A stretch of 64,000 nt of DNA from an uncultured Lachnospiraceae bacterium. GTDB taxonomy: Bacteria > Bacillota > Clostridia > Lachnospirales > Lachnospiraceae. Positions 20,212 through 60,393 of this stretch are shown here, in pieces. A model generated the notes under the pieces. That model was not told the DNA's origin. It saw only the letters and a program-made list of their open reading frames with translations, and did not search any database. Positions within the stretch are counted from its first letter, which is position 1. Each line of letters starts with the position of its first letter. The position numbers and the translations under genes were made by a program. Where the stretch lies: NCBI GenBank assembly GCA_902793995.1, contig CADBFP010000004.1, positions 40,461-104,460 of the forward strand, written 5' to 3'.

Positions 20212-20285
20212 GGGCTCATCAGGGGATGAGCCCCTACGGAGAAGCTTACTGCGTAGTTCGTAGGGGCCGATGCCCTCATCGGCCC
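20212..20285. repeat. Two-hairpin CTACGG/CCGTAG repeat (family B)
   Basis: Hairpin one pairs GGGCTCATC (20212-20220) with GATGAGCCC (20225-20233), followed by CTACGG. Hairpin two is preceded by CGTAG and pairs GGGCCGATG (20264-20272) with CATCGGCCC (20277-20285). The same architecture with different but self-complementary stems recurs at 26179-26237 and about 50200-50326. Confidence 0.8.
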
Positions 20286-20297
20286 GCATACATACGG

Positions 20298-20322
20298 GGG
20301 CGGCCAGTGGCCGCCCTTTTTT
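20298..20322 (+). terminator. Rho-independent terminator of alcohol dehydrogenase
   Basis: GGGCGGCC (20298-20305) pairs with GGCCGCCC (20309-20316) around an AGT loop, followed by six T. Confidence 0.9.
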
Positions 20323-20332
20323 GAGGGAGCAG

Positions 20333-20434
20333 TGTCATTCTGAGCGGAGGGCCGTCAGGCCAGGAGTCGAAGAATCTTTCATCTTCCGTCTCCGTATAAG
20401 ATCCTTCGACTCGCTTCGCTCGCTCAGGATGACA
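20333..20434. repeat. MITE-like inverted-repeat element (family D)
   Basis: A left arm begins TGTCATTCTGAGCGG (20333) and ends AGTCGAAGAATCTT (about 20378). A right arm (20398-20434) is its inverted partner, reading on the minus strand TGTCATCCTGAGCGAGC and ending AAGGATCTT. Only about 20 bp lie between them and there is no gene. The arms match the inverted repeats that flank the GIY-YIG nuclease at 44631-45010 (33 of 37 positions for the right arm). The element ends 11 bp before the cobW start codon, and no Shine-Dalgarno is visible there. Confidence 0.75.
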
Positions 20435-20445
20435 CCTATACAGTT

Positions 20446-21432
20446 ATGAAAATATTAATTGTCTCCGGCTTTTTGGGAGCCGGCAAAACCACCTTTATTA
20501 AAGAACTGATTCGCCGCAGCGGCACCCGCCCCGTCATCATGGAAAATGAGTACGGGGAAAACAATCTGGACGCGCAGGAACTGGAGCGCGTAATCGAGTC
20601 GCCCTCCCCCGCCCCTGACGGGGCACCCTCCCCCGCGTCCGGGAGAGGGCAGGAGATGAAAATCCTGGAATTTATGGAGGGCTGTGTTTGCTGTACCATG
20701 AAGGACAGCTTTGTGAATTCGGTGCTGACCATTTTCTCCGGTCTGGCGCCGGAATATCTGGTGATCGAACCCACGGGAGTGGGGCGCCTCTCCAGCATTC
20801 TGGAGAATCTGAAGCCCATACTCCATGACAATATAGAAATCCTAAAGCCGGTGGTAGTCTTGTCTCCCCGGACCTACGCCGCCAATATGGCGGAATGGCC
20901 CGGTCTCTACCGGGATCAGGTGGCCAACGCGGCTGTCGTTGTCTTTTCCAAGGGAGAGCAGGAGGATCCGGCTCTGCTGGCGGAAGTGGCGGGACAGATC
21001 CGGGAAATCAATCCCCGGGCGGAAATTGTGCAGGAGCATTACAGCCGGCGGCCGGATGCCTGGTGGCGGAGCCTTATGGATCTGCCGGCGGAGGAGCTGG
21101 CCGTCACGGAGGAAGGCGCGGCAGAGCGCTTTGACCAATTGAGCCTCCACGGCGCCCATCTGGAAACGCCCGCCCAGCTGATCCTGCTTTTAGAGGATTG
21201 CCTTCGGGGAGAAATGGGGCATATCCCCCGGGCCAAGGGGGTGCTGCCGGTGGGAGACGAGTGGTTCCGTTTCGATCTGGCAGACAGGCAATATGCCATC
21301 ACCGGGGCGCCGGAGGGAGAAATCCAGTGTGTGTTTATCGGCCGGGATCTTCGGGAGGATGCGCTTTGCCGCCGCCTGGGGACTTCCCGGGAGGACGAGG
21401 CCTTTTATAATCCCCGGATGCGGTTTGGATGA
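20446..21432 (+). CDS. CobW/P47K-family (COG0523) GTPase, metal chaperone-like
   Basis: A 328-aa G3E GTPase. Walker A GFLGAGKTT at 8-16, switch region ENEYGENNLD, zinc-binding CxCC in GCVCC (residues 80-83), and IEPTGVGRL. COG0523 proteins deliver zinc, cobalt or other metals to target enzymes. It stands alone, with no cobalamin genes nearby, so the client is unknown. Residues 52-70 (SPSPAPDGAPSPASGRGQE) are a Pro/Ala/Ser-rich insertion between the switch and CxCC regions, encoded by a palindromic repeat; the reading frame stays open through it. No Shine-Dalgarno sequence is visible before the ATG. Confidence 0.85.
   Translation: MKILIVSGFLGAGKTTFIKELIRRSGTRPVIMENEYGENNLDAQELERVIESPSPAPDGAPSPASGRGQEMKILEFMEGCVCCTMKDSFVNSVLTIFSGLAPEYLVIEPTGVGRLSSILENLKPILHDNIEILKPVVVLSPRTYAANMAEWPGLYRDQVANAAVVVFSKGEQEDPALLAEVAGQIREINPRAEIVQEHYSRRPDAWWRSLMDLPAEELAVTEEGAAERFDQLSLHGAHLETPAQLILLLEDCLRGEMGHIPRAKGVLPVGDEWFRFDLADRQYAITGAPEGEIQCVFIGRDLREDALCRRLGTSREDEAFYNPRMRFG
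20599..20655. repeat. Palindromic repeat inserted in frame inside the cobW-like gene
   Basis: Two hairpins: GCCCC (20611-20615) with GGGGC (20620-20624), and CCCTCCCCCG (20626-20635) with CGGGAGAGGG (20640-20649, one mismatch). The DNA is much more GC-rich and low-complexity than flanking codons and looks like an intergenic repeat. Its 57 nt are a multiple of three and add 19 residues without a stop. Confidence 0.7.
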
Positions 21433-40845: not shown

Positions 40846-40878
40846 GGACACGGGGACGGTTCTTTCCGTCCCTTTTTT
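40846..40878 (+). terminator. REP hairpin (family A) as terminator of the ABC-F gene
   Basis: GGGACGG (40853-40859), loop TTCTTT, CCGTCCC (40866-40872), then six T. This copy is also the downstream neighbour of the RAYT transposase, in opposite orientation to the doublet at 41830-41882. Confidence 0.85.
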
Positions 40879-41629
40879 ACTGTCCCAGCCGCCCGATCAG
40901 ACTCCGGCTGATACCTGTCAGCCGGGAAAGCTGCCGAATGCCAATCCCACTAGCCAGCAGCAATCGTATGGCTTCGTCCCTTTGCACTTTGGGCATTTCC
41001 TGAAGCATAGTCGGCCGGTCTATTTGAAGAATCTCCCGTATCTGCTGCACTGCCCAGGCATCGCCTCGGCCCCGCAGCGGCTCATATTCCATAATCTCTT
41101 TCCCTTCTTCCGCATCATCCAGCACATAGCGCCGGTACTCCTCTTCATTTTGCCAAAGCGATTCAAATATCGATGTGTCCACCAGGCTGTTATTTGTTCC
41201 GTACAGGGAAAAACTGCTCCAGGGATATGTCTCAGGGGATCCCAGCCCCGCCTTCAGCGGGTTTCGCAGAATATACCTGAGCGCACGGGCCAAATAACCA
41301 TTGTTTTCAATCGATTCGCTTTTGTACCGGTCCTGGAATAAATGCCCGCATCGATCATATTTACCGTTGAAATAGGCCGCATAGCTGACGCACAGCTTTT
41401 TCATAAAGAGAGGCAGATTCTCGGCAACAATAAATACCAGTAGGTGCACATGATTGTCCATCAAACAGTAAGCAAGCAGCTGCACCTGCTGGTCTTTTGC
41501 AAAGCGCGCCAACGCATGTAGGAAGAATTGATAATCTGCGTTTTCCTCGAATATTCTCTGCCGATCAACTCCTCGAATAATAAGATGATAAACTCCGCTA
41601 TTACCATAACGGCGCGGTCTTCTGGCCAT
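40877..41629 (-). CDS. REP-associated tyrosine transposase (RAYT, Y1/IS200-like)
   Basis: A 250-aa Y1-type HUH nuclease. Start ARRPRRYGNSGVYHLIIRGVDRQRIF; HUH motif in YCLMDNHVHLLVF (His-Val-His, about residues 60-62); LFQDRYKSESIENNGYLARALRYILRNPLKAGL carries the candidate catalytic Tyr region and the characteristic YIxxNPxKAGL. The C-terminus (about 200-250) adds a DnaA-like helix-turn-helix (DEAIRLLLASGIGIRQLSRLTGISRSLIGRL), typical of RAYTs rather than IS200 transposases. AGGAG lies 5 nt before the ATG. It is bracketed by GGGACGG REP hairpins in inverted orientation, the hallmark of a RAYT locus. Confidence 0.9.
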   Translation of the reverse strand: MARRPRRYGNSGVYHLIIRGVDRQRIFEENADYQFFLHALARFAKDQQVQLLAYCLMDNHVHLLVFIVAENLPLFMKKLCVSYAAYFNGKYDRCGHLFQDRYKSESIENNGYLARALRYILRNPLKAGLGSPETYPWSSFSLYGTNNSLVDTSIFESLWQNEEEYRRYVLDDAEEGKEIMEYEPLRGRGDAWAVQQIREILQIDRPTMLQEMPKVQRDEAIRLLLASGIGIRQLSRLTGISRSLIGRLGQ

Positions 41630-44630: not shown

Positions 44631-44667
44631 TGTCATCCCGAGCGAGCAGAGCGAGTCGAGGGATCTT
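44631..44667 (+). repeat. Left inverted repeat of the GIY-YIG element (family D)
   Basis: A 37-bp repeat beginning TGTCATCCCGAGCGAGCAGA and ending CGAGGGATCTT. It matches the complement of the right repeat (44973-45009) at 33 of 37 positions and the right arm of the element at 20398-20434 equally well. It lies 15 bp before the nuclease start codon and directly upstream of its AGGAGG. Confidence 0.85.
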
Positions 44668-44681
44668 GTAAGGAGGAACAT

Positions 44682-45008
44682 ATGGATAATCGTTTCTACT
44701 ATGTTTACATTCTGTCTAATTGGAACAATCGGGTTCTGTATGTTGGCGTGACTGGAAATATTGTAAGAAGAATGTATGAGCATAAAAATAAAAAGCGTGA
44801 GGGCTTTACAGCAAAGTACAATATAAACAAACTGGTTTTTTACGAGTATGGCAGAGAAATTAAGGATATGATAGCGAGAGAAAAACAAATAAAAGGCTGG
44901 TCGAGAAAAAAGAAAATTGCTTTGATTGAAGGAATGAATCCTGACTGGGTGGATTTAGCGGATGGGTGGGAAGAGGATTCCTCGACTCGCCCTGCTCGCT
45001 CGGAATGA
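44682..45008 (+). CDS. GIY-YIG endonuclease (stand-alone, URI-type)
   Basis: A 108-aa GIY-YIG nuclease of the small UPF0213/YhbQ-like class: YYVYILSNWNNRVLYVGVTGNIVRRMYEHK gives the two strands (YVYIL and YVGVT) and the catalytic Arg on the following helix; the metal-binding Glu is in MIAREKQIKGW. Base composition is far more AT-rich and Lys/Asn/Ile codon-heavy than all neighbours, a sign of transfer. The last ten codons and stop (44976-45008, DSSTRPARSE) are encoded by the right inverted repeat, so the gene and repeat have evolved as one unit. It sits between dprA and topA and has no evident role in their pathway. Confidence 0.9.
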   Translation: MDNRFYYVYILSNWNNRVLYVGVTGNIVRRMYEHKNKKREGFTAKYNINKLVFYEYGREIKDMIAREKQIKGWSRKKKIALIEGMNPDWVDLADGWEEDSSTRPARSE

Positions 45009-45009
45009 C
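44973..45009 (-). repeat. Right inverted repeat of the GIY-YIG element (family D)
   Basis: On the minus strand it begins TGTCATTCCGAGCGAGCAGG and ends CGAGGAATCCT. It is the inverted partner of 44631-44667 and contains the nuclease stop codon. The full element therefore spans about 44631-45009 (about 380 bp). Confidence 0.85.
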
Positions 45010-45012
45010 ACA

Positions 45013-45110
45013 CAAACAATCGTGGCGATAAAAAAGGCCCCGGCAGCGACCCGCTGTAAATGGGGAGATCCCCGCAGGAGCATCCCTCTCCTGCGGGGGT
45101 CGTTTGTTTG
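45013..45110. ncRNA. Candidate structured RNA or complex terminator upstream of topA
   Basis: An outer stem pairs 45013-45022 (CAAACAATCG) with 45101-45110 (CGTTTGTTTG, one mismatch). Inside are AGCG-acc-CGCT (45045-45055), TGGGGAGATCCCC (45061-45073) and an 11-bp stem CCCCGCAGGAG/CTCCTGCGGGG (45070-45080 with 45088-45098); the last two overlap and so are alternatives. Six A at 45030-45035 would be a T-run for a minus-strand transcript, so an RNA of about 90 nt transcribed leftward is possible. No Rfam family recognised by eye. Confidence 0.35.
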
Positions 45111-60363: not shown

Positions 60364-60393
60364 CGTGTCATCCTGAGCGCAGCGAAGGATCCC
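60364..60393 (+). repeat. Solo family D repeat half
   Basis: TGTCATCCTGAGCGCAGC (60366 onward), then GAAGGATCC: one arm of the family D repeat without an inverted partner within 100 bp. It lies in the leader of the GMP synthase gene. Confidence 0.7.

Follow-up and report, generated by a model that had tools for sequence, protein, structure and literature searches.

Between dprA and topA in an uncultured Lachnospiraceae bacterium lies a gene for a small GIY-YIG nuclease, enclosed by two TGTC-tagged repeats in inverted orientation, and the question raised by this locus was whether gene and repeats form a mobile unit in which the nuclease is what spreads the repeats. In the window (the whole 64,000-nucleotide stretch of DNA analysed here) the unit is laid out as follows:

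44631 to 45010, plus strand: tag-to-tag unit of 380 bp, made of left arm, ribosome-binding site, GIY-YIG gene and right arm
44631 to 44667, plus strand: left arm, a TGTC-tagged hairpin with stem ATCCC...GGGAT, read from the sequence
44671 to 44676, plus strand: AGGAGG, after the left arm and ahead of the start codon, likely a ribosome-binding site
44682 to 45008, plus strand: open reading frame of the GIY-YIG nuclease, 108 aa (PF01541 match, AlphaFold2 model)
44974 to 45010, minus strand: right arm, a TGTC-tagged hairpin with stem ATTCC...GGAAT, read from the sequence

The left arm (plus strand) and the right arm (minus strand) were equal at 33 of 37 positions, with TGTC at both outer ends of the unit, and the arms fit the CGTC/TGTC-tagged REP superfamily. 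The original prediction of a 108-aa GIY-YIG gene inside 37-bp inverted repeats was confirmed, as were the presence of its last ten codons and stop codon within the right repeat (44974-45010), where the TGA stop is part of the tag AATGACA, and its AT-rich composition among GC-rich neighbours (38.8% GC, compared to 57.1% for the window, 63.9% for dprA and 58.4% for topA). The predicted start of the unit at 44631 stood, and its outer end was moved from 45009 to 45010. An Rfam search of the window yielded zero matches at gathering scores. Just downstream of the unit, at 45071-45103, another inverted repeat (CCCCGCAGGAG...CTCCTGCGGGG) was noticed by eye, which is possibly the original dprA terminator.

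The nuclease reading frame matched a single family, PF01541 (GIY-YIG), with 56.3 bits against a cut-off of 22.6, and residues of the GIY-YIG kind (Y9, Y20, G22, R30, H34, E67 and N86), which we take to have a catalytic role, were invariant across 47 sequences. The AlphaFold2 model had a mean pLDDT of 89.5 and was confident except for residues 101-108, located in the arm-encoded end; the protein consists of a bare catalytic domain. The nearest solved fold was UPF0213 (1zg2; E 1.8e-4), the only match under 0.001, followed by several chains of SLX1, a branched-DNA nuclease, whose E values of 0.02-0.1 make this second resemblance merely suggestive. Profile match, residues and a model nearest to UPF0213 all place the protein in the GIY-YIG nuclease superfamily. 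Among phage records, no match to the nuclease was found at E 1e-5.

A profile built from six sequences, run once against 84,980 species genomes, returned at least 547 confirmed stretches, of which the best 80, picked by protein similarity and not by repeats, encode proteins 49-66% identical to the window protein; 74 of these best 80 of at least 547 had a named phylum, and 23 phyla were represented. As a control, 589 mechanical open reading frames of at least 90 aa were taken from the same loci, none within 700 bp of the gene, the intergenic setting being unmatched. Within 350 bp, outward-tagged arms on both sides accompanied 52 of the 80 clade genes (best 80 of at least 547) and 3 of the 589 control frames, while the opposite orientation on both sides was seen in 20 and 3 cases and any arm in 77 and 78 cases, respectively. 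The 3 loci of these best 80 of at least 547 with no arm within 350 bp count against the mobile-unit reading. Tags of the GTCAYYCYGAG kind numbered 149 in the 69,689 bases comprising gene and 300 bp on either side, versus 57 in 1,006,143 bases further out (best 80 of at least 547). With a stem-blind rule, under which GTC-ATnnn had to be followed by its own reverse complement and a C no more than 66 nt away, 246 arms were counted in 47,263 bases of 300-bp flanks against 167 in 1,006,063 further bases, a 31-fold enrichment, or 257 in 69,769 bases, 22-fold, when the gene was included (again for the best 80 of at least 547). No arm was found within 3.2-3.3 kb at any of 9 distinct non-clade GIY-YIG loci (8 of UPF0213 type, including the YhbQ-type gene of the own genome, plus its UvrC gene), nor at the 2 Y1 loci of the own genome. 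The expectation that GIY-YIG genes of this clade would be flanked by the repeat in inverted orientation was thus strongly borne out across phyla, and we hold the association and the unit character of the arrangement with high confidence.

The hairpin nature of the arms was addressed by a covariation test in which the GTCAT nearest each gene was taken blind to the downstream sequence. The complement of the tag's own stem followed downstream for 108 of 138 tags, and stems of another kind fitted in 421 of 15,552 swaps (best 80 of at least 547). ATTCT, ATTGC, ATCCT, ATTCC, ATCCC, ATTTC and ATGCT stems all showed this pairing with their own complement; the stem variation is compensatory change. When the single-strand folding energies of 8 arms were computed, those of 7, all of the TGTCAT type, did not differ significantly for the better from shuffled sequences, so that the hairpin claim rests on covariation instead; the energy was significant for the Azospirillum arm, with an 8-bp stem, a 4-nt loop and -9.7 kcal/mol. 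The window arms fold weakly and their stems are interrupted. Many arms contain a GCGAAGC core, known to form a DNA mini-hairpin of unusual stability, and this would be in keeping with recognition of single-stranded DNA.

Arm class was then mapped on a protein tree of 97 rows, 6 of which were left out of the count (5 without arm label and 1 with an odd label). The 91 labelled rows required 16 changes, compared to a mean of 29.4 and a minimum of 22 in 2000 within-phylum shuffles, for which the phylum of 15 labelled rows (the window, L051-L055 and plasmid records) was assigned by hand and rows of unknown phylum were kept fixed; the tree itself is weakly resolved, with 60 of its 93 inner branches weakly supported. 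The arm type thus tracks the protein tree more closely than host phylum alone explains, a pattern that would be produced by gene and arms travelling together as well as by recognition.

By a strict rule, both arms were present at 47 of the best 80 of at least 547 loci, 20 of them forming units of 352-398 bp and the other 27 spanning 409-834 bp because their nearest qualifying arms sit further out. A right arm was present by the same rule at 61 of these best 80 of at least 547; at 13 of the 61 the stop codon lay at +2/+3, abutting the arm, and at 5 it lay at -21, where the tag supplies the TGA, just as it does in the window. In DNA alignments that cover the gene between loci of different organisms (551 pairs, which are not independent), similarity ended within 3 nt of a tag at 367 of the 1071 left ends and at 312 of the 1022 right ones, versus 4.7% and 4.6% of random points; an alignment between Sinorhizobium and Shinella begins exactly at the tag in both records. 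Ninety length/offset combinations were tried on 93 gene-less pairs and on 34 compact entries representing 33 loci, and no consistent target-site duplication was found; three small excesses (2/34, 5/34 and 2/93) among the 90 settings were not accepted as real. A GIY-YIG nuclease gene between two inverted CGTC/TGTC REP hairpins, 350-400 bp when compact and with a stem type that follows the protein, is a layout that recurs in many phyla.

Related repeats occur elsewhere in the window. The tag TGTCATYCYGAGCG, searched with up to 2 mismatches, was found at 5 places in the window, all exact, where 1.56 were expected and none of 100 shuffles reached 5; in the complete 2.17 Mb of the genome, where one mismatch was allowed, it was found at 36 places versus 1 for a reversed-pattern control. 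Two of the window features concerned are:

20333 to 20434: gene-less inverted pair of subtype ATTCT/ATCCT, with arms at 20333 to 20376 (plus strand) and 20400 to 20434 (minus strand)
60366 to 60391, plus strand: solo hairpin arm of subtype ATCCT, read from the sequence

Both had been foreseen, the former as a gene-less element with the same arms as the nuclease unit and the latter as a solo arm at 60364. The solo arm exists and starts at 60366. The inverted pair is real but its arm subtype differs: stems are ATCCC/ATTCC in the gene-bearing unit, ATTCT/ATCCT in the 20333 element and ATCCT in the solo arm. In the own genome, ATYCC...GGRAT hairpins, the subtype of the nuclease unit, were located only at the two ends of the unit, while the ATYCT-subtype pattern, to which the 20333 pair and the solo arm belong, gave 41 matches. 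With the arm subtype of the unit nowhere else in the genome, the proposal that the 20333 element is a short form of the window nuclease unit was not supported. This element is a relative in the same repeat superfamily and, since the arm subtypes differ, no demonstrated derivative of the 44631 unit; the ATTCT/ATCCT repeats are of a related subtype, on which another relative of the enzyme possibly acts.

Other elements were observed around these repeats. A second dispersed intergenic repeat, like GTAGGGGC...ATG...GCCC, adjoins the TGTC pair at 20220-20300 of the window (by eye) and also lies beside TGTC hairpins in other loci of the own genome (L021, L026). A third, CCCTCCCCCG...GGGGGAGGG-like, was seen by eye at 20600-20660, in the reading frame that follows the 20333 pair; two further loci (L008, L012) also have it next to TGTC hairpins. 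A RAYT-like Y1 transposase is encoded at 40877-41629 on the minus strand, 3 kb from the nuclease unit (PF01797, 54 bits; NF047646 REP-associated tyrosine transposase, 64.4 bits, below the cut-off of 80), and no CGTC/TGTC arm was found at its locus.

The distribution of unit and enzyme was examined at the levels of genus, family and phylum. A topA search of the genus covered 16 genomes, the own included. dprA preceded topA without the unit in 10 of the 15 congeners (9 by reading frame and L050 by eye, its dprA apparently frameshifted); among the remaining ones, 4 had other neighbours at dprA or topA and 1 was cut off. No arm was found at topA in the congener loci, and one odd match in L040 lay ~1.1 kb upstream. 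Comparison of dprA-topA intervals, proposed to define ends and target duplication, did provide gene-less intervals but could not define either, and base-by-base comparison of dprA-topA and sufB-sufC intervals left the unit ends unfixed because the intergenic DNA is too diverged. Among 200 family genomes, a close relative of the nuclease was found at E 1e-8 only in the own genome. Eight of 398 phylum genomes matched the nuclease, 6 belonging to the close clade (own included) and 2 being weak matches with 35% identity. With a clade profile, 3 of the 16 genus genomes carried the enzyme at E below 1e-40 (own included), at three different sites with arms nearby: the own at dprA-topA, the second between methionyl-tRNA synthetase-like and SecA-like reading frames and the third beside an asparaginyl-tRNA synthetase-like one (the last two assigned by eye). 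Arms stood on both sides at the first two sites and downstream only at the third; apart from the gene, the second and third loci have nothing in common with the window locus except, in one of them, an arm match of 21 bp. No second clade copy within one genome was found among the genomes searched whole, which counts against the mobile-unit reading. Patchy presence, different insertion sites and low GC point to a mobile and not a housekeeping gene, and the window unit looks like a recent, single-copy arrival in its genome.

The repeats are more widely spread than the enzyme. The hairpin GTCATYCTGA...GAAGRATC was present in 36 of the 398 phylum genomes, with 1 match for the reversed control. All 6 close-clade genomes contained it (41, 11, 12, 12, 78 and 69 matches), and 30 of the other 392 had at least one match, 5 of them ten or more. 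In the genus, repeats occurred in 14 of 16 genomes, with 119, 35, 29, 22 and 22 matches in congeners without the clade enzyme. Twelve repeat-bearing genomes without a close match, including the 5 phylum genomes with ten or more matches, were searched by the clade profile and 7 gave matches (E 1.5e-6 to 2.9e-15), which were rejected as clade enzymes and read as UPF0213-type, so that these genomes were still counted as enzyme-free. In the sampled phylum and genus genomes the enzyme came with the repeats, and repeats do not imply the enzyme. As a separate observation, profile search did not find the clade nuclease in two very repeat-rich genomes, G384 (92 matches) and G204 (119 matches), where it is either lost or missing from the assembly, or another enzyme serves the repeats.

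Individual host loci provided occupied and empty sites. Of 34 records in a plasmid collection that match the nuclease protein, 11 were read, and CGTC/TGTC hairpins were identified by eye beside the gene in 9 (Planktothrix, Azospirillum, Sinorhizobium, Novosphingobium, Spirosoma, Shinella, Sphingobium, Aeromonas and Neisseria, those of Spirosoma being clear on one side only); a Rhizobium locus had no hairpins and a Photobacterium locus distant tags only. The suf operon of Azospirillum lipoferum contains the gene together with two REP dimers, placed between sufB and sufC; this was the only one of 12 Azospirillum records to cover the whole query, and 5 of the other 11, which were read, had short spacers. 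Sinorhizobium meliloti Ak57 carries a 375-bp full unit and, 120 bp away, a 163-bp internally deleted copy (L140 1159-1321) that keeps both arms and the gene's end, so non-autonomous derivatives do exist elsewhere. Sinorhizobium sp. K101, 95.5% identical around the site of the Ak57 unit, has only a short REP sequence there and matches the nuclease at 2 other places. One Sphingobium site holds the gene unit in 3 records, a short palindrome tagged at both ends in 1 and neither in 1, and two related Planktothrix plasmids hold repeats without the gene at the same site. G270 and G309, of one distant genus, share the unit with partly syntenic flanks, and comparison of two related Zixibacteria regions and two Shinella regions gave no clean presence/absence pair. 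The allelic presence and absence of the gene in Azospirillum, Sinorhizobium and Sphingobium counts for the mobile-unit reading. As an aside on genomic setting, the unit of Planktothrix agardhii p1 (L138 3001-3261) has an MmeI-type restriction gene on one side and the drmA gene of a DISARM defence locus on the other, and a related Planktothrix plasmid has a hypothetical gene and a PIN-domain gene at that restriction-drmA site instead.

Taken together, 44631-45010 is probably a compact mobile unit that ends in REPs, and its nuclease would act on these hairpins and thereby mobilise them. The ~95-residue nuclease would recognise its arms as hairpins, which may arise single-stranded during lagging-strand synthesis or as cruciforms, and would cut the hairpin in a structure-selective manner, either at the tag or close to it; host repair could then copy or re-insert the unit, and gene-less inverted pairs and single REPs would be products or deletion derivatives as well as substrates for the enzyme. 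GIY-YIG enzymes are not known to pass through a covalent intermediate, so that insertion would need host repair, and this counts against the mobile-unit reading, as do the lack of a consistent target duplication among the units and pairs compared, the repeat-rich enzyme-free genomes, the restriction of the own arm subtype to the two ends of the unit, the folding energies of the TGTCAT-type arms, and the Rhizobium and Photobacterium plasmid loci with no hairpins or distant tags only.

The main rival, which we consider unlikely, is that of a free-standing homing endonuclease that targets REPs: the enzyme would cut a REP, repair would install the gene between the REP halves, and the REPs would be landing pads not dispersed by it. 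The A. lipoferum gene between two REP dimers can be read this way, and so can the repeat array without gene at the same site in Planktothrix plasmid relatives, the short REP palindrome that one Sphingobium relative has where others have the gene unit, and the short REP sequence of K101 where Ak57 has the unit. Short palindromes, however, can equally be deletion products between arms, a Sphingobium site with neither REP nor gene exists, and the compact units (20 of the 47 with both arms, among the best 80 of at least 547) have one complete arm pair close to the gene and often a stop at the arm, which is unit-like and not random landing. It is improbable that the arms are dispersed by another enzyme, e.g. 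a REP-associated Y1 transposase such as that of 40877-41629, with the nuclease gene as a trapped passenger. Such a transposase gene does lie 3 kb away in the window and the repeats do persist in genomes without the clade nuclease, but the Y1 loci of the own genome lacked arms over the 3.2-3.3 kb searched, PMC3733652 reports no CGTC repeat beside tyrosine transposases, and the same gene across many phyla with an arm type tracking its tree would hardly be expected.

Quite improbable, too, is a nuclease that trims or guards against repeats, either REP-processing or host-domesticated, with arms serving as regulatory hairpins or as substrate copies for autoregulation. This would agree with the weak fold resemblance to the structure-selective nuclease SLX1 and with the frequent position of the stop codon at or in the arm, which may tie expression to the arm. 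What argues against it is that the gene has a low GC content, lies at different insertion sites and is patchily present, in 1 of 200 family genomes (E 1e-8) and 3 of 16 genus genomes. That gene and arms have no relationship, repeats simply piling up in intergenic space near any small gene, is barely credible. REPs are indeed intergenic and 78 of 589 control frames had an arm near, yet paired outward arms marked 52 of 80 clade genes (best 80 of at least 547) versus 3 of 589 controls, which were mechanical and unmatched in intergenic setting, the non-clade GIY-YIG (0/9) and Y1 (0/2) loci had no arm at all, and arm type follows the protein tree.

We return to the mobile unit, in which the GIY-YIG nuclease is likely what spreads these repeats. 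Because the gene sits between such repeats in bacteria of many phyla, there is a strong case for this GIY-YIG clade as the enzyme hitherto missing for a class of repeats that is widespread in bacteria. More tentatively, and with the greater weight on doubt, the 350-400 bp units may be undescribed autonomous transposable elements, consisting of a ~95-residue GIY-YIG domain, REP-hairpin ends and often a built-in stop, that move themselves and gene-less derivatives and are the engine of the CGTC/TGTC REPs, including dRS3, with no transposase. Ordinary insertion sequences are at least about 0.7 kb long. A self-moving unit, if this is one, would fall far below that length and would represent hairpin-end mobility by a nuclease for which a covalent intermediate is not known. 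What moves the CGTC REPs becomes a question that biochemistry can address directly, since a protein of 95 residues and an oligonucleotide of 30 nt suffice for the test.

Several known systems resemble the unit. The UPF0213 (YhbQ-type) proteins are the closest solved relatives by sequence and fold (1zg2), but were read as a separate clade, none of 8 such loci examined having an arm in 3.2 kb. Free-standing and intron GIY-YIG homing endonucleases belong to the same nuclease superfamily and to mobile DNA; the window unit differs in having neither intron nor DNA-binding extension and in ending in REP hairpins. MITEs and their parent insertion sequences share terminal inverted repeats and internally deleted short copies (as in S. 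meliloti Ak57), whereas the units described here have no transposase and no consistent target duplication was found in them; an insertion sequence with MITEs was rejected on the transposase criterion, as the window unit encodes a GIY-YIG nuclease only. REPtrons (RAYT-REP) likewise combine a small gene for an enzyme, with REP hairpins on its two sides, and numerous REPs without a gene at other places, but have an HUH/Y1 transposase and a GTAG tag instead of a GIY-YIG nuclease, a CGTC/TGTC tag and an enzyme that is patchy in the genus. A RAYT-REP assignment of the window unit was rejected, since the enclosed gene matches GIY-YIG only and the tag is not GTAG.

The closest likeness is to the CGTC REPs. 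As their defining paper describes them (PMC3733652, Di Nocera et al. 2013), they have a one-sided CGTC tag with TGTC as a common variant, a palindrome that opens with complementary AT pairs, with a stem of 8-9 bp, a loop of 4-5 nt and an unpaired tail, and occur mostly as inverted dimers; they are found in 5 phyla, including Neisseria dRS3 and Rickettsia conorii RPE-4/RPE-6, and Azospirillum lipoferum and Sinorhizobium meliloti are named as hosts. The same paper states that they 'apparently lack a dedicated transposase' and leaves the mover of the repeats open. In the mainly open-access literature searched, no paper was found linking GIY-YIG to REP, CGTC or dRS3 repeats: in the searchable text of PMC12306157 and PMC5082802 the terms nuclease and endonuclease were absent, and in that of PMC6006769 CGTC, Di Nocera and the nuclease family matched just in the reference list. 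With no relevant match in these searches, we think that the GIY-YIG-to-REP link is new within the open-access literature. Compared with the CGTC REPs as described in PMC3733652, the window arms share the TGTC tag, the ATnnn...nnnAT stem, the inverted dimers and the many copies per genome, and differ in that the CGTC REP stem is a clean 8-9 bp while TGTCAT-type arms have an interrupted 5-bp basal stem. No enzyme dedicated to the repeats is reported in that paper, whereas here a GIY-YIG nuclease is tied to them, and A. lipoferum, S. meliloti and Neisseria, hosts of such repeats, carry the GIY-YIG gene beside them.
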